From Bacteroidales bacterium (GTDB taxonomy: Bacteria; Bacteroidota; Bacteroidia; Bacteroidales; BM520), in assembly GCA_031276035.1 (NCBI GenBank), contig JAISNV010000034.1, forward strand, positions 1 to 64,000: a stretch of DNA of 64,000 nucleotides, in the 5' to 3' direction. Below the pieces are notes generated by a model. It worked only from the letters and a program-made list of their open reading frames with translations. It was not told the DNA's origin and ran no database searches. Below, one piece after another: positions 3,164-58,119 of the stretch (its first letter is position 1; each line of letters starts with the position of its first letter). The position numbers and the translations under genes are program-made.

Positions 3164-4303
3164 TTATGAATTAATAAAAAAGTCGGAAGCATATTTATCT
3201 GCGAATAAGAAACCAGCATCATTCAACGAATAATTAGATTTAATTATAATTAAATGATCTTTAGGCACTAATAATAATTTATTCTTAGTATTTTCAGTGA
3301 AAATACCTCCATATTTATCATCAATATAATCCAGATTTATCCCCATTTTCGTTCTAAAAGCAAGCATAATATACTCATTATACGAATCAGTTAAGTCTAT
3401 TTTTTCCGTTTCAAAGTAGTTTTTTCCATCTTCCAAACTCGTTTTATATGTCAATAATGAAGGAAAATTCCATCTTCTTTGATTTCCATCAAAGGAATGA
3501 GCACCGGGACCTAAACCGAGATAAGTATTGCCTGTCCAGTACGCAGAATTATGTTTTGATTTAAATCCATCCAAAGAATAGTTGGAAATTTCATAATGGT
3601 CATATCCGTTCTCTTTCAATCTGTCAGCAATAAAAAAATAAAAATTTACCTCATCATCTTCACCGGGAATATTTATTTCTTTCTTTTGAATATCATTAAA
3701 TAAAGGAGTTCCTTTTTCTATAGTCAAGGAATATACTGAAATATGTTTCGGCTTAAATCTTAATGCCATTTCTATATTTCGATTTAAACTTTCTAAGTCT
3801 TGGGATGGTAATCCGTAAATTAAATCCAGAGAGAAATTATCAAAATGTTTTGAAATTATTTCGAGGGATTCCATGGCTTTCCGCGAGGAATGCCTTCTGT
3901 TAATCAATTTCAATTCTTTATCATTAAAACTTTGTATTCCGATACTTATTCTATTAATTTTCGTATTTGAAGCCAGAAATTTTACATATTCATCTGTAAT
4001 ATCATCCGGATTGACTTCAATTGTAATTTCCGCATTTTCAGAAATATTAAAAATTTTGTAAAGACGATTTAGAAGTTCCGAAATCAATTGGGGGGAGAAA
4101 AGCGATGGCGTTCCACCGCCTAAATATATTGATTTTACAATGGAATTATTGAGATAATCATTCCGTTGCGACGCTTCTTTTATTAAAAGGTTTATATAAT
4201 CTTCAGGCTTAATTACAGAATTTGTTTCGGAAAAGAAATTACAGTAATAACATTTCGATTTACAAAAAGGGAAATGAATATAGATAGAAGATTCCGGGAG
4301 CAT
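3164..4303 (-). CDS. hemW: Radical SAM protein HemW (heme chaperone, HemN-like)
   Basis: A 379-residue cytoplasmic radical SAM protein. The [4Fe-4S] cluster motif CxxxCxxC is at C14, C18 and C21 (CKSKCYYC), preceded by IYIHFPFC as in HemN/HemW, and the GGGTPS SAM-binding motif follows at about residue 62. The length (about 380) and the early position of the cluster fit HemW, long annotated as oxygen-independent coproporphyrinogen III oxidase. HemW proteins are now viewed as heme-binding chaperones that insert heme into respiratory proteins. The gene starts 2 nt after the histidine kinase gene ends, so the two are almost certainly on one mRNA. HemW is favoured over true HemN because HemN is about 80 residues longer at the N-terminus. 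Confidence 0.9.
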   Translation of the reverse strand: MLPESSIYIHFPFCKSKCYYCNFFSETNSVIKPEDYINLLIKEASQRNDYLNNSIVKSIYLGGGTPSLFSPQLISELLNRLYKIFNISENAEITIEVNPDDITDEYVKFLASNTKINRISIGIQSFNDKELKLINRRHSSRKAMESLEIISKHFDNFSLDLIYGLPSQDLESLNRNIEMALRFKPKHISVYSLTIEKGTPLFNDIQKKEINIPGEDDEVNFYFFIADRLKENGYDHYEISNYSLDGFKSKHNSAYWTGNTYLGLGPGAHSFDGNQRRWNFPSLLTYKTSLEDGKNYFETEKIDLTDSYNEYIMLAFRTKMGINLDYIDDKYGGIFTENTKNKLLLVPKDHLIIIKSNYSLNDAGFLFADKYASDFFINS

Positions 4304-16704: not shown

Positions 16705-18300
16705 TTAAAAACCATTTAAATCGAACATTACAGTAGGTATTAATAATAGGAATCCAAGTACAATCAACAGCAAAATAAATTTCCAGAAGAATTTAAACCA
16801 TTTTTCATAGGGAATTTTTGCCATTCCCAAACAACCCATCAAAACTCCGGATGTCGGTGTTATCATATTCGTAAAACCGTCGCCGAATTGGAATGCAAGC
16901 ACGGTAGATTGTCGCGAAATATCAAGTAAATCCGAAAAAGGAATCATTAACGGCATTGTAAGTGCTGCCTTTGCAGAACCGGAAGGCATAATTAAATTTA
17001 ATCCTGTTTGAATAAGATACATTATTCCCAGCGACCAGGTTTTGCCTACATCACTCATGGTTTTTGACAAAGAATACATCATTGTATCAATAATTTTTCC
17101 TTCTTGTAAAATAATGATAATACCACCGGCCAAGCCTACAACCAATGCCGCAGAAAGAATATCTTTAGCTCCTTCCAAAAAAAGTTTTGTAATAGCATTA
17201 GGAGTGTTTCCTGCGGAAATGCCGGCAAATAATCCCATTCCAAAGAATAACGAACCAATTTCAATAACGTACCATCCGTATCCCATAACTCCAAGAATAA
17301 GGAAAAGTATTGTGAAAAGCAATAAATCAATAATAAAAAAATGTACCGACTTTCTAAGTGAGAAGAAACCGCTAATTGCAAATAGCCCTGTTAAAATAGG
17401 AATTGCGTAAAAAGTAAATTCTTTCATTCCTATTTTTAATGTTGAAACCGGAAATTTAAACGATAAAAATATTAATACTACCGTTATAAAAATCCAGCAA
17501 AACCAAGCTGATTTTGGGGTATAATATTTTATTTTTTCGTTTTTAATATCATGACTTTTCCTCCAATAAGCATCTAATTCATACATCGGGGATTTTTGCG
17601 GATTCTTTTTTATTTTATTAGCGTAAATAAGAATAAAAGTAAATCCTACCGCATTAATAATCAGCCAACAGATCATTCTGTATTCTATTCCTGAGAAAAG
17701 AGGAATTTCTGCAATGCCTTGTGCAATTCCAATCGTAAACGGATTTAATATCGCTCCGGCAAAACCCAAATGTGCCGCAACATAAACAATGCAAACTCCT
17801 ACTATCGAATCATAGCCCAAAGATATACTCAGAGGTACAAAAATAATAATAAAGGCAATAGTTTCTTCACTCATTCCGAAAACAGCACCGAAAAGACTGA
17901 ACATTGTCATTACTAAAATCAGAATAATATTATTAACTCCGATTTTCCTAAGCCATTTATATTTTTCAAATTTTAATATCGATTGTAGGAAAGCGGCAAT
18001 TCCGATGTCCAAAGCTTTAGTTGAATTCATTATCCAGAAAGCTCCACCTATAAGCAGAATAAAAATAATGATATGTGATTGGGCTTCAAAACCTTTCGAA
18101 AAAGATGTAAATACTTCCCATAACTGAGGGCTTTGTTCGACGTAATGAAAAGAATCGGGATCAATTACTTCCCGTAAAGTTCCGTCCGGCATTTCAATTT
18201 TTTGCCTGTTAAATTCTCCTGCAGGAATAATGAGAGTAAGTATAGTACAAATAACTATGATAAAGAAGATTATGACATAAGTATGCGGAACTTTTTTCAT
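16705..18300 (-). CDS. YfcC-family membrane transporter
   Basis: A 531-residue integral membrane transporter with about 12-13 hydrophobic segments. It is of the YfcC/C4-dicarboxylate anaerobic carrier (DcuC-like) group, recognisable from the start MKKVPHTYVIIFFII, the segment TLIIPAGEFNR and the repeated motif containing MPSGSAKAALTMPL near the C-terminus. Family members are proposed to carry dicarboxylates or basic amino acids; the substrate here is unknown. The frame is open to 18357, but the internal ATG at 18300 is preferred. It matches family N-termini, and a -7 box (TATCTTTG, 18329-18322) lies between the two candidate starts, so the upstream codon would not be transcribed. The gene converges with rsmA, with 110 bp between them. 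Confidence 0.85.
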   Translation of the reverse strand: MKKVPHTYVIIFFIIVICTILTLIIPAGEFNRQKIEMPDGTLREVIDPDSFHYVEQSPQLWEVFTSFSKGFEAQSHIIIFILLIGGAFWIMNSTKALDIGIAAFLQSILKFEKYKWLRKIGVNNIILILVMTMFSLFGAVFGMSEETIAFIIIFVPLSISLGYDSIVGVCIVYVAAHLGFAGAILNPFTIGIAQGIAEIPLFSGIEYRMICWLIINAVGFTFILIYANKIKKNPQKSPMYELDAYWRKSHDIKNEKIKYYTPKSAWFCWIFITVVLIFLSFKFPVSTLKIGMKEFTFYAIPILTGLFAISGFFSLRKSVHFFIIDLLLFTILFLILGVMGYGWYVIEIGSLFFGMGLFAGISAGNTPNAITKLFLEGAKDILSAALVVGLAGGIIIILQEGKIIDTMMYSLSKTMSDVGKTWSLGIMYLIQTGLNLIMPSGSAKAALTMPLMIPFSDLLDISRQSTVLAFQFGDGFTNMITPTSGVLMGCLGMAKIPYEKWFKFFWKFILLLIVLGFLLLIPTVMFDLNGF

Positions 18301-18321
18301 TTTGAAAAGTTTAAAACTTTG

Positions 18322-18329
18322 CAAAGATA
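18322..18329 (-). promoter_or_regulatory. -7 promoter box of the YfcC gene
   Basis: TATCTTTG on the minus strand, 21 nt upstream of the chosen start codon at 18300. It matches the Bacteroidota TAnnTTTG element and decides the start of this gene. Confidence 0.55.
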
Positions 18330-18395
18330 GTGAATCTATGAAAAAGTGAAAAAACACTGTTTAAAAACTCTAAATGCGAACTAAATATATTTTCT

Positions 18396-18403: not shown

Positions 18404-18417
18404 TAAATTATTTTCTT

Positions 18418-18430
18418 AGACTTAGAAAGT
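18418..18430 (+). repeat. Single copy of the AGACTTAGAAAGT motif
   Basis: AGACTTAGAAAGT in the leader of the gene at 18449, identical over 13 bases to the core of the copies at 54716-54848 and to the left arm of the hairpin at 58091-58119. Here the outer bases do not complete the palindrome. Confidence 0.6.
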
Positions 18431-48954: not shown

Positions 48955-50172
48955 ATGTATAACATTGCTCTTATAATATACTATTTTTTAATATGTATTT
49001 CTTGTCTTTTCAGTGAAAAAGCAAGAGAATGGGTACGCGGACGCAAAAACATTTTTAAAAGATTAAAAAAGATTGATCCCGGAAAAGGTATTATTTGGTT
49101 TCACTGTGCTTCTTTAGGGGAATATGAACAAGGATTACCTGTTATCATTAAAACCAAGGAAAAATACCCTGAACATAAAATTTTACTTACATTTTTTTCC
49201 CCTTCCGGATTTAAGAATAAAAAGTATCAAAAAGAAGTAGATTATACTTTTTATATGCCTCTTGACACAATAATTAATGCTTACAGGTTTATTAATATTG
49301 TAAGGCCCGTTTTTGTTGTGTTTGTAAAATATGAGTTTTGGTATAATAATCTTTGGGTGCTAAAAGAAGCTGATATTCCCATAATTTATATTTCTTGTAA
49401 TATAAGAAAAACACAATATTTTTTTAGATGGTATGGCGGATGGTTTAGACAAAGACTTCGAAAGGTAACTCACTATTTTGTTCAGAATGAAGAATCGAAA
49501 AGATTATTGGAAAGTATTAGAATTAATCAGGTTACCATTGCCGGAGATACTCGTTATGATAGAGTTAAAGCTATTGCCGATACGGATTTCTACGATGAAA
49601 AAATAAGTTCTTTTATCGGAAACAGTGAAAATGTTTTTATTACGGGCAGTACCTGGCCGAAAGATGAAACGATGCTTTTGGAAATTCTCCCTAAACTTAG
49701 AAAGTATAAAATTATAATTGTTCCGCACGAAGTAACTGAAGATAATATAAATCGTATCAAAGAGCTATTTAATAATAGTGTTTTGTATAGTGAATATAAA
49801 ATTTCAAAAGATTCGGATTCGAATATTTTAATTATTGATTGTATCGGATTATTATCACGGCTATATCGTTATGCTAAGTTTGCGTATATTGGCGGTGGAT
49901 TCGGAAAAGGTATTCACAATATATTAGAAGCTGTTGTTTATGAAGTCCCGGTAATTTTCGGACCAAATTACAAATATTTTAATGAAGCTATAACCCTGAT
50001 AAACGCCGGTGGTGCTTTTAGCTTTTCCAAAAAGGAAGAATTAATAGAAATTATTGATAATTTGCTCAACGATAATTTTCTGGAAAAGGCAAAAGGTTCT
50101 TGTCAGGAAATTATTGATAAAAACTTAGGAGCTACGGATGAGATTATGGAAGAATTAAGAATTAAGAATTAA
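48955..50172 (+). CDS. waaA: 3-deoxy-D-manno-octulosonic acid (Kdo) transferase
   Basis: A 405-residue inner-membrane-associated glycosyltransferase that adds Kdo to lipid A precursors in LPS assembly. An N-terminal membrane segment (about 4-22) anchors it. The family signatures are present: the HCASLGEYEQGLPVI motif with the catalytic Glu (near residue 60), the FVKYEFWYNNL block, GSTWPKDE and GGGFGKGIHNILEAVVYEVPVIFGPNYKYFNEA in the C-terminal GT-B domain. The length is normal. Its last codons and the sequence after the stop are four tandem copies of AGAATTA (50151-50178), so the C-terminus has been set by a microsatellite. It follows the outer-membrane gene by 26 nt. Confidence 0.95.
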   Translation: MYNIALIIYYFLICISCLFSEKAREWVRGRKNIFKRLKKIDPGKGIIWFHCASLGEYEQGLPVIIKTKEKYPEHKILLTFFSPSGFKNKKYQKEVDYTFYMPLDTIINAYRFINIVRPVFVVFVKYEFWYNNLWVLKEADIPIIYISCNIRKTQYFFRWYGGWFRQRLRKVTHYFVQNEESKRLLESIRINQVTIAGDTRYDRVKAIADTDFYDEKISSFIGNSENVFITGSTWPKDETMLLEILPKLRKYKIIIVPHEVTEDNINRIKELFNNSVLYSEYKISKDSDSNILIIDCIGLLSRLYRYAKFAYIGGGFGKGIHNILEAVVYEVPVIFGPNYKYFNEAITLINAGGAFSFSKKEELIEIIDNLLNDNFLEKAKGSCQEIIDKNLGATDEIMEELRIKN

Positions 50173-54715: not shown

Positions 54716-54848
54716 CCCTAGACTTAGAAAGTCGAAAAATAATTTTATCTGCTTAAGAAGTTTTACTAGCTTTTCTATTTCTCCCTAGACTTAGAAAGTC
54801 TTTATTGTCAAATATTTGTTATCTATATTCACTAAACTTAGAAAGTTT
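54716..54848. repeat. Three copies of a palindromic motif (GACTT-AGA-AAGTC)
   Basis: CCCTAGACTTAGAAAGTC occurs identically at 54716-54733 and 54783-54800 (67 bp apart). A third copy, ACTAAACTTAGAAAGTTT, lies at 54831-54848 (48 bp further). In the third the outer G is A and the outer C is T, so both arms changed together and the dyad symmetry was kept. They lie upstream of the -7 box at 54902 and about 200-340 bp upstream of tnaA. The same core recurs at 18418 and 58091-58119. Confidence 0.8.
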
Positions 54849-55019: not shown

Positions 55020-57980
55020 ATGAAAAATTTTTATTCTTTTTTGTTCTTTTTAATTCTGGTAGTATTTTATTCTACTAATGCATATTCCCAACAATATGCG
55101 GCTTCTAAACTTATCACAAACAGTGACGGAGTGTCCTATAAACTTGATTATTTAAATACAGCTTCTCCTCAAAAACAGTCTGATGCAGTTGCAGAAAATG
55201 TTGAGATAATTTGGTCAAAATCTGAATCCTATTCAATTGGTGAGCATGTGTATTATTCTAAAGAAACCGAAAAAAGTTTTGTTAATTGGGCTTTAAATGA
55301 TAATCGCGTAGCTCAATACGGAAATACAAATTCCGCTATTTGGGAATTTCCAACTTCATTCGATTTTACAAAAGCTTTTTCAAATAAGGAAGGAAGTTTA
55401 TACATTGTAACAGATGGAACGGAAATATATGTTCTAGATCCGGTTACCGGAAATCTTCTTTGGGAAAAAAGTATTGCTTCGGGAGTTTCTTATGCTGCGG
55501 CTTATCCCGACGGAACAGGTTTTTATTTTAGCGACGGCGATTACAAAGTATATTCTTGTCTGATAAATTCTCAAACACCAGTATGGACAATACAAGCCGA
55601 AAATGGTATTGTAGGCATCAATATTTCCGAAGATCATTCTCAAGTAATTATTTGTCTATCGCAACCTGCAACAAAAGCATTAATCATTGATCCTCAAAAT
55701 GGGAATGTAAAACAAGAATTATACTATTATAATAATTCTCCAACACAAACTCCGGCTTTTAGTGCTAATGGTGAATATTTGGCTATGGCCGATTTTAGTG
55801 GTAAAGGTACTTTATACAAGCTGGTAAACGGTACATATGAACAACAATGGCAAACATCTTTACAACATTCAAGTTCATCTTCAACATGGGGAAGTGGCAT
55901 CGCTATATCAGCTGACGGTTCTACAATTGCATTTGGAACTCTTGGTTTTACAAGTACCGGTTATATGGGTTCAGTATATGCTTTCAACAATTATTCCGGA
56001 GAACCTGTATGGTCATTTCATGATTGTGGAGATCAAATATGTTATATTTCCATTACCGATGATGGTAGTTTAATAGCCTGTGCAGGCTATGGTCCGTTGG
56101 ATCATTCAAGTCCCGATTTGTATATTTTCCGCAAAGAAAGTTCCGAACCAATTTCTACACTTGGCACTTCCGGTTCATTTTCTTATGTAGATATAGCTTC
56201 GGACGGTTCAAAAGGAATTACTGCCGGAAAGGGTGTACATGCTCGAGAAATGGGATATGGAGGTCAGGCATATTTTTTTAACCCGGTACCTTCAACATTC
56301 GGTAATCTTAGCGGAATTGCAGACCTTATAGGTAACGACGATAATAGCTTAGTTTTAATCACTCTAGAAAACATTGATGATTATTATGCTTATTCTAAAG
56401 TTTCCGGTGATTTCGACATAAAATATATACCTGCCGGTACATATTCATTAACTGCTTCTAAACAAGGGTATTATTCACAAACTGTTGAAAATATTGTTAT
56501 TACTGCCGGTAATACTACTAATATTAATATAGATTTACAACCTGCCGGAGAAGCTGTTAAAAATTTATTTGCCTCTCAAGGCGCATATCCAACTGTTAAT
56601 CTCAGCTGGAATGAATACGAAGGTTCTTGCATAGGATATAATATTTATAGAAAACAAAACGAAAATGCTCCGTTTACAGATGTTTTTGCATCAGTTGGTG
56701 TAAATGAAACCGAATTTATTGATGATACGGCGCTACCTACATTCAATTATTATTATACAGTGACTGCTATTATCACCGCAGACTTGGAAGGTCCTTTTTC
56801 AAATACGGCATTGGGCTATACCTTAACATCATTTATTACTAAAGAAATTGATATATATAATACTTCAATAATTCCGAATATTGATGGTGTAATATCTGCC
56901 GGAGAATGGGATGATGCTTTTGTTTTCGATGCTTCGGATTTTCTCGGTAGTGACGGATCTTATCAACCAGTAGGAAGTGTTATTATGTACATTAAAGCAG
57001 ATGAAGATAATTTATATGTTGCCGTTGAAAATAAAAATGATACTCAACTAAGTTCAGGTGATAGAACTGCTTTTTATATTGATGACAATTTTAACGGTGT
57101 ATATGAAGAATCCGGTAATGATTCGGAAGGAAATTACTGGATAAATTATGGACCTGCAGGAACTTATAGCGTTCAATATCGACCCATTTATAATACCGGT
57201 GGTGTTGGTGATACATATACCCTAACCTGTGATGTAGCAGCTTCTGACGCAGTCGGTTACGTTGTTGCGGAATTTACTCTTCCTATAGGCTCGGATGATC
57301 ATGATATTACACCCGGTAACATGAATAAGAGCAAAGCATACATATATGTCAGAGACGGTGCTTATGGTAATCAAGATGGTCAATGGCCCTATGATAATGC
57401 CGAAACATTTGTACCTGTTGGATACGGTATAATGAATTTCTATGCAACAGATGATGTTCCTCCACCACCTGAAAATTTACGTTATAATCCTAGCTATTTT
57501 AATTCTCCCGAATTTGTAGCTATTTCTTGGGATATGCCCGAAATAAATGATTTAGATTATTTTAATGTTACTGTTAAAAATGTTAACTCCGGAAATGAGG
57601 AAATTATAGAAACGCCAGGGAATCAAATTATTTATAATGTTGAAGATTTAACAACCTATAATGTAACTGTAACAACTGTTGATAAAGCCGGACAAGAATC
57701 TGTTGACTCGGAAAATCTTGAAATTATAACAAATTTTATGGGAATAGTTGATTTTGATAAAAGTTCTTTTATCATCTATCCTAATCCTACTAGCAATATT
57801 TTAAATATCAAAACAGAAACAAACAAAAATAATATTGTTGAAATATATAATATTTCGGGCAATATTGTTGGAAAATATGAAATGTCAAATAATGCTCTTA
57901 ATATCGATGTTTCAAAATTATCAAACGGTATTTATTTTATTAAACTTGGAAAGTCTGTTCGGAAGTTTATAAAGCATTAA
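55020..57980 (+). CDS. T9SS-secreted protein with beta-propeller, carboxypeptidase-regulatory-like, fibronectin III and CBM9-like domains
   Basis: A 986-residue secreted protein. Signal peptide about 1-24 (ending NAYSQ). Residues about 90-430 are a PQQ/WD40-like beta-propeller with repeated ISxDGSxIAFGT- and VYAFNNYSGEPVWSF-type blades. A carboxypeptidase-regulatory-like domain (about 440-510) and a fibronectin III module (about 515-605) follow. A CBM9-like carbohydrate-binding domain lies at about 620-810 (PNIDGVISAGEWDDAF, DNLYVAVEN and TAFYIDDNFNGVYE), then a second fibronectin module. The T9SS type A sorting domain is at about 915-986, starting at IYPNPTSN. No catalytic residues were identified. 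Binding of a surface glycan or protein is likely. A terminator follows the stop codon. Confidence 0.88.
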   Translation: MKNFYSFLFFLILVVFYSTNAYSQQYAASKLITNSDGVSYKLDYLNTASPQKQSDAVAENVEIIWSKSESYSIGEHVYYSKETEKSFVNWALNDNRVAQYGNTNSAIWEFPTSFDFTKAFSNKEGSLYIVTDGTEIYVLDPVTGNLLWEKSIASGVSYAAAYPDGTGFYFSDGDYKVYSCLINSQTPVWTIQAENGIVGINISEDHSQVIICLSQPATKALIIDPQNGNVKQELYYYNNSPTQTPAFSANGEYLAMADFSGKGTLYKLVNGTYEQQWQTSLQHSSSSSTWGSGIAISADGSTIAFGTLGFTSTGYMGSVYAFNNYSGEPVWSFHDCGDQICYISITDDGSLIACAGYGPLDHSSPDLYIFRKESSEPISTLGTSGSFSYVDIASDGSKGITAGKGVHAREMGYGGQAYFFNPVPSTFGNLSGIADLIGNDDNSLVLITLENIDDYYAYSKVSGDFDIKYIPAGTYSLTASKQGYYSQTVENIVITAGNTTNINIDLQPAGEAVKNLFASQGAYPTVNLSWNEYEGSCIGYNIYRKQNENAPFTDVFASVGVNETEFIDDTALPTFNYYYTVTAIITADLEGPFSNTALGYTLTSFITKEIDIYNTSIIPNIDGVISAGEWDDAFVFDASDFLGSDGSYQPVGSVIMYIKADEDNLYVAVENKNDTQLSSGDRTAFYIDDNFNGVYEESGNDSEGNYWINYGPAGTYSVQYRPIYNTGGVGDTYTLTCDVAASDAVGYVVAEFTLPIGSDDHDITPGNMNKSKAYIYVRDGAYGNQDGQWPYDNAETFVPVGYGIMNFYATDDVPPPPENLRYNPSYFNSPEFVAISWDMPEINDLDYFNVTVKNVNSGNEEIIETPGNQIIYNVEDLTTYNVTVTTVDKAGQESVDSENLEIITNFMGIVDFDKSSFIIYPNPTSNILNIKTETNKNNIVEIYNISGNIVGKYEMSNNALNIDVSKLSNGIYFIKLGKSVRKFIKH

Positions 57981-58042: not shown

Positions 58043-58090
58043 TTATTAAATTGTTTATATCGTATGGATTAATCATATCAAAAATATAAA

Positions 58091-58119
58091 ACTTTCTAAG
58101 TCTATAAGACTTGGAAAGT
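58091..58119. repeat. Hairpin formed by two copies of the AGACTTAGAAAGT motif
   Basis: ACTTTCTAAGTCT (58091-58103), a three-base loop ATA, then AGACTTGGAAAGT (58107-58119). The arms are complementary over 13 positions, with one T-G pair. The motif core is that of the repeats at 54716-54848 and 18418. It lies downstream of the terminator, in the interval before the aminopeptidase promoter box. Confidence 0.75.

Follow-up and report, generated by a model that had tools for sequence, protein, structure and literature searches.

Site triplet in the tnaA-T9SS intergenic region

The window analyzed here, a stretch of 64,000 nucleotides, forms the beginning of a contig (C34) in the genome of a gut bacterium of the order Bacteroidales (G000; 2.685 Mb in 44 contigs). 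It contains three copies of a short palindromic site, located in the gap that separates tnaA from the gene of a secreted T9SS type A protein (Table 1). The preliminary description of this locus as two identical 18-mers and a variant was confirmed with respect to both coordinates and sequences, as was the recurrence of the same core elsewhere in the window, namely at 18419 and at 58090/58108, where it forms an inverted pair together with a variant that differs in one letter. When up to two mismatches are allowed, the window contains 12 matches compared to 1.5 expected, a number reached in none of the shuffled sequences; the triplet is real and lies well beyond chance. It belongs to a larger cluster of sites on C34 and is located 27 kb from a gene at C34:82305, beyond the edge of the window, that encodes a divergent protein resembling REP-associated tyrosine transposases (RAYTs).

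Table 1. Palindromic sites in the window with the adjacent genes, and RAYT-like genes with the surrounding site clusters
Feature	Position	Strand	Remarks
tnaA	53092-54468	-	one side of the triplet
Site copy 1	54716-54733	+	CCCTAGACTTAGAAAGTC
Site copy 2	54783-54800	+	18-mer CCCTAGACTTAGAAAGTC, same as copy 1; suffix CTT, enriched among flanks of the C34 RAYT cluster
Site copy 3	54830-54847	+	CACTAAACTTAGAAAGTT; foot TAA, not TAG
T9SS type A secreted protein gene	55020-57980	+	other side of the triplet
Site in gene	3788-3798	-	11-mer; HemW/HemN-like gene, peptide SQDLESL; ungapped against solved relatives
Site in gene	17349-17359	-	11-mer; gene 16705-18357
Single intergenic site	18417-18430	+	TAGACTTAGAAAGT; diverging genes on either side
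Site in gene	49692-49705	+	TAAACTTAGAAAGT; gene 48955-50172
Variant in gene	57941-57954	+	TAAACTTGGAAAGT, one-letter variant; C-terminal sorting domain of the T9SS protein
Intergenic site	58091-58104	-	TAGACTTAGAAAGT; inverted relative to the neighboring variant at 58108
Intergenic variant	58106-58119	+	AAGACTTGGAAAGT, one-letter variant; loop A to G, the best tolerated substitution
RAYT-like gene	C34:82305-83045	+	in site cluster C34 54-98 kb
RAYT-like gene	C19:100470-101186	-	in site cluster C19 68-132 kb
RAYT-like gene	C15:43517-44188	+	in site cluster C15 40-51 kb
RAYT-like gene	C25:27966-28625	+	in site cluster C25 15-41 kb

The conserved unit

Alignment of 144 copies of ACTTRGAAAGT defines the conserved unit as TAR-ACTT-AGA-AAGT, that is, a hyphenated palindrome with 4-bp arms and a 3-nt loop, preceded by a 5' foot, TAR, which in one subfamily is replaced by TCA/TGG. 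In this alignment, information is present at T(-3), A(-2) and R(-1) and in the 11-mer, with almost none further out, and the right flank is free. The change of both outer letters in the third copy of the triplet (G to A and C to T) had been taken as compensation that preserves the symmetry of the arms. However, the letters at -1 and +11 are paired in 21 of 124 copies, compared to 18.5 expected from the letter frequencies, and outside the C34 cluster such pairing is found in a single one of 36 intergenic copies. Given that there is no covariation, the two changes reflect chance combined with a local flank preference and are not compensatory.

Nearly all of the 33 one-letter neighbors of the 11-mer occur in genes at the expected frequency. 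The exceptions are mainly loop changes, namely ACTTGGAAAGT (17 versus 3.1 expected) and ACTTAG[CGT]AAGT (4-6 each versus about 0.5), with ACTTAGAAAGA (13 versus 1.4) as a further one-letter exception, so that recognition seems to be strict for the arms and more relaxed for the loop. With energies of -0.7 to -1.0 kcal/mol, the hairpin is weak, except for the flavor found on C34 (-3.2 kcal/mol). Upstream of the RAYT gene on C19, the site continues into a second, longer palindrome, AAAGTTTAATGAAACTTT (C19:101200-101230), which is also present, in an imperfect form, upstream of the RAYT gene on C15 (C15:43420-43450).

Abundance in the genome and in the order

In the whole genome, ACTTAGAAAGT occurs 125 times compared to 2 for the reversed control, and RACTTAGAAAGTY occurs 34 times compared to 0. 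The preliminary description had hinged on whether the motif is more frequent genome-wide than base composition predicts; it is, by far. For the location of the copies relative to genes, 2.525 Mb were read and genes were delineated by a simple longest-ORF method, which makes the division into genes and gaps approximate. Intergenic regions contain 49 copies of ACTTAGAAAGT, with 0.23 expected from the dinucleotide composition. Genes contain 75, against a mean of 2.4 and a maximum of 7 in 30 protein-preserving codon shuffles, which rules out chance due to codon usage, and no other 11-mer is as strongly over-represented in genes (20.7-fold, compared to 5.8 for the next unrelated word). A repeated protein motif is ruled out as the source of the in-gene copies, which are spread over four reading frames (31, 26, 15 and 3).

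The density of ACTTAGAAAGT is about one per 20 kb, in both orientations and both within and between genes. A polar, KOPS-like motif was rejected because almost all contigs that carry several copies have them in both orientations. Some 100-kb stretches lack the site altogether, and the in-gene copies located far from the RAYT genes are unevenly distributed across contigs (p=0.0026). On the longest contig (C1:1-492815), in-gene copies are depleted, with 3 found and 11.2 expected.

In a set of 295 genomes from the order, the count of the 11-mer is high in G000 alone (125), the next highest being 8. Within the genus, a high count was found separately in Odoribacter sp. OttesenSCG-928-L07 (G002; 54 copies in 1.7 Mb), and there is one copy in G004 and none in G001 and G003. 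Thus, the word is clade-specific. Co-occurrence across the 295 genomes says nothing about other RAYTs because their words may differ.

Site clusters around four RAYT-like genes

The intergenic copies are concentrated around four RAYT-like genes of the same genome (Table 1): 42 of the 49 are located within 50 kb of one of these genes and 38 within 30 kb, whereas the permutation mean for the latter is 4.1 and none of 2000 random placements of four windows reached 38. Up to 30 kb from a RAYT gene, the intergenic density amounts to 1.71 sites per 10 kb, as opposed to 0.048 outside. For the in-gene copies, the association is with 20 of 75 within 30 kb (p=0.0005), and 54 are distant from any known RAYT. 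Copies in the same orientation are found upstream of each of the RAYT genes (C15 43409 and 43429; C19 101215; C34 82273; C25 27704 and 27844), the nearest one lying about 75-110 nt before the likely start codon in all four cases. Of 14 pairs of intergenic neighbors separated by less than 100 nt, 13 are direct, and the intergenic copies around the RAYT genes often form direct arrays with spacings of 20-140 nt.

Two of the neighborhoods have flanks of their own. Near the C25 RAYT, the TCA/TGG foot is present in all seven intergenic copies compared to 3 of 42 elsewhere (p=1.4e-6), and in 4 of 7 in-gene copies compared to 6 of 68 elsewhere (p=0.005); near the C34 RAYT, the suffix CT is found in 7 of 20 copies versus 5 of 104 (p=5e-4). 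An origin-centered, parS-like cluster was considered and rejected given that dnaA and parAB are located on C13 and that clusters are also present on C19, C15 and C25. Within C34 80000-100000, the GC skew changes sign and the GC content drops to 0.287, as is the case at a replication origin or terminus.

The RAYT-like proteins encoded on C34, C19 and C15 share 54-64% identity with one another, and the C25 protein is 37-41% identical to them. For all four, the best NCBIfam match is REP_Tyr_transpos (NF047646), with E-values of 1e-7 to 5e-10 and bit scores of 32-40, below the cut-off of 80; PF01797 exceeds its cut-off for the C15 protein alone. The HxH motif is invariant in all four proteins, and the Y motif is YIHKNP in C15, C19 and C34 and FIHRNP in C25. 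In the C25 RAYT, Phe replaces the Tyr presumed to be catalytic, as it does in the catalytic mutants Y115F and Y125F of the literature (PMC8266576), and yet the sites nearby are exact and carry their own foot. A search of solved structures with the RAYT sequence found no relative. A structure model of the RAYT, of moderate confidence with a mean pLDDT of 62.7, has IS608/ISDra2 TnpA as five of its six best matches, with Z-scores of only 4.1-5.3.

Comparison with sister species

In the genome of Odoribacter sp. OttesenSCG-928-L07 (record JAJDHA010000005.1), which is 74% complete, no RAYT of this family was found despite the 54 copies of the 11-mer, and G004 encodes two RAYTs (48% identical) with its single copy of the word, so that, from one species to the next, the site does not strictly go together with the RAYT. 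Two Odoribacter copies align without gaps to sites in G000 genes (C12:32813 and C28:157590), each in a block of about 15 identical nucleotides within DNA that is about 78% identical. A third matches C35:4213 by coordinates, and a fourth aligns, also ungapped, to a differing G000 sequence, so that three of the four located counterparts are conserved. For the G000 copies in ftsW, thiM (two), thiD and the hemW-like gene, alignments with either the sister species or solved homologs show no gaps; the alignment of the TAAACTTGGAAAGT variant with the sister species is ungapped as well, with the site not conserved there. Of three in-gene copies near RAYTs (C34:97438, C25:36137 and C19:113135), none is present in the aligned Odoribacter DNA.

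The ungapped alignments, together with these absences, indicate that the in-gene copies compared were gained by substitution rather than insertion. Judging from the aligned sequences, some of them are kept over about 20-25% divergence. The combination of exactness and age argues for maintenance, in a small sample and with a contribution from protein conservation; probably, the site is a functional sequence and is kept for that reason. In the tnaA-T9SS region, the Odoribacter orthologs are adjacent and the gap between them contains no copy of the site; the triplet is therefore specific to the genome with the RAYT clusters.

The Odoribacter segment L218:12256-12382 joins DNA corresponding to C34:50251 with that of C34:94103, as if the segment with dense sites had been inverted, and the site at 93998 is about 100 nt from the second of these C34 breakpoints. 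The C25 RAYT with its neighbors (C25:27645-31645) is situated exactly between two blocks that map to different Odoribacter contigs. At C35:3036-3105 (L083), about 40 nt recur with 81-95% identity in at least 7 places of the sister genome and possibly represent another small repeat family shared by the two species.

Interpretation and alternatives

Taken together, these observations make it fairly likely that the triplet belongs to an atypical, minimal family of REP-like sites whose predicted partners are the four RAYT/TnpA-REP-like HuH proteins of the same genome. Among the options offered in the preliminary description, a small dispersed element comes closest; what the description did not include is the tie to RAYT genes located outside the window. 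TnpA-REP binds a single-stranded hairpin through stem and loop features and a 5' foot that helps to select the cut (PMC8266576), and the strict arms, the looser loop and the RAYT-specific foot described here fit this recognition scheme. By analogy, the RAYT would bind the site, probably as a single-stranded hairpin on the lagging-strand template, guided by the 5' foot, and would act mostly near its own gene. Exact sites could then be preserved by selection for RAYT binding or by RAYT-driven copying or repair. In the case of the C25 protein, with Phe in place of Tyr, the present role would have to be one of binding without cutting. Copying by transposition could explain the intergenic arrays; the in-gene copies would require selection for binding, or conversion.

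A further step, which we put forward as speculative and rather doubtful, is that each RAYT imposes its recognition word locally, such that exact sites of the flavor of that RAYT are gained by substitution, in genes and between them, within tens of kilobases, and near-misses do not accumulate. The site would then be either a maintained binding sequence, with a domesticated transposase involved in local chromosome marking, or the product of RAYT-guided conversion, and not a mobile repeat.

It seems unlikely that the site is bound instead by an unrelated chromosome-organizing protein, in the manner of matS, NBS or SBS, with the RAYTs merely having become established where sites are dense or having taken over the site. 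Such a protein would be in keeping with an exact hyphenated palindrome with a 3-nt center, as in the matS palindrome, that is present in both orientations, in genes and in gaps, about once per 20 kb, with invariant arms and near-misses at background. The in-gene conservation at three of the four Odoribacter sites with a located counterpart, the presence of the site in that 74% complete genome where no RAYT was detected, and the uneven spread of distant in-gene copies over contigs (p=0.0026; 3 versus 11.2 on C1) point in the same direction. However, the flanks are specific to each neighborhood and alike in and between genes, which a single genome-wide binder would not predict. Furthermore, a same-orientation copy is located directly upstream of each RAYT gene, tight direct arrays are atypical for matS, and the word is absent from two of the three other genomes of the genus, with one copy in the third.

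Ordinary REP elements mobilized by RAYTs, with the in-gene copies being due to chance or spurious, would account for the RAYT linkage and the neighborhood flavors. This possibility is improbable in view of the in-gene excess (75 versus 2.4, with 0 of 30 codon shuffles above 7) and the lack of a crowd of one-mismatch relics. REP transposition fails for the in-gene copies because the compared sites show no gap, near-misses are at background, and several orthologous copies exist in Odoribacter, in whose 74% complete genome no such RAYT was found.

The preliminary description had also suggested a regulator binding site. An array of operators for a transcription regulator of the T9SS gene and tnaA could be envisaged from the three copies within a single divergent promoter region and from the over-representation of intergenic copies in divergent gaps, where 57 kb contain 20 sites, as many as 146 kb of tandem gaps. 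Nevertheless, it is very improbable, considering that 75 copies are located in genes of unrelated function, that 9 are found in convergent gaps, that the intergenic copies have no fixed orientation relative to the genes, and that the triplet is missing in the orthologous Odoribacter promoter region. Least credible of all is a DNA uptake sequence (DUS/USS-like) spread through biased transformation, which would agree with an exact short word enriched in genes via substitution and with a dialect common to sister species but not with about 125 copies where hundreds to thousands have been described (PMC2346458), with the concentration around RAYTs (42 of 49 intergenic copies), with the absence from 100-kb stretches, or with the RAYT-specific flanks.

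RAYTs, domesticated transposases with a wide distribution, have no known host function, and their Bacteroidetes subclass has hardly been described. The four RAYTs of this genome, each surrounded by near-exact sites of its own and two with clear private variants, represent a natural experiment on specificity. The ungapped, partly conserved in-gene copies argue for maintenance of the site as such and make the role that RAYTs may have for the host directly testable with binding assays and comparative genomics.

Relationship to known systems

With DNA uptake sequences, the sites share the exact word, the in-gene enrichment by point changes and the clade specificity (PMC2346458, PMC3630211), and they differ in being far fewer and regionally clustered instead of occurring genome-wide in hundreds to thousands of copies. 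Like matS/MatP and similar systems, they comprise an exact short palindrome found in and between genes with regional differences in density (PMC3330122), whereas here the distribution is RAYT-centered, the flanks vary by neighborhood, and direct arrays are present. Sites of the matS kind are confined to a single chromosomal domain and have a dedicated binding protein; for the present sites, an uneven density across contigs was observed.

The classical REP, BIME and REPIN elements of E. coli and Pseudomonas are likewise short palindromic repeats with a 5' foot that are associated with RAYTs and present in many copies (PMC3733652, PMC3116915), and, as expected of REP elements, copies are found here both at the RAYT flanks and elsewhere in the genome. 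Unlike the classical elements, the sites have a TAG/TAA or TCA/TGG foot in place of GTAG/GT[AG]G, conserve 11-14 nt as opposed to 20-40 bp, reside in genes in 75 of 124 cases rather than being mainly extragenic, and form direct pairs (13 of 14) and local clusters instead of inverted pairs; the compared in-gene copies, having no gap, did not spread by insertion. Among REPs, T. roseum GTAG-23 is a clustered exception (PMC3733652).

The closest known relatives appear to be RAYTs of subclass 2.6 (Bertels group 5), which, as far as the published description (PMC6006769) goes, are mostly from Bacteroidetes and have flanking hairpins that are atypical, comparatively weak and devoid of GT[AG]G, with further copies elsewhere in the genome. 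By that description, the phylum, the HuH-Y1 proteins with a YIHxNP motif followed by a serine motif, the weak flanking hairpins without GT[AG]G and the dispersed copies are the same here. The SS tail of the subclass takes the form SSY in three of the four proteins, and the spacing between HuH and Y is about 88 compared to about 82 aa. The HuH motif is NHFH, NHYH or DHYH in contrast to NH[LIV]H, and the Y motif is YIHKNP (FIHRNP in C25), near to the YIH[QN]NP of that description (PMC6006769). The site family studied here differs further in that the site is 11-14 nt long, is abundant in genes by substitution and comes in distinct flavors in two RAYT neighborhoods. Accordingly, the site family is best read as an atypical, minimal REP-like site, probably recognized by RAYT proteins, that resembles these Bacteroidetes systems (subclass 2.6/group 5), of which little has been described.
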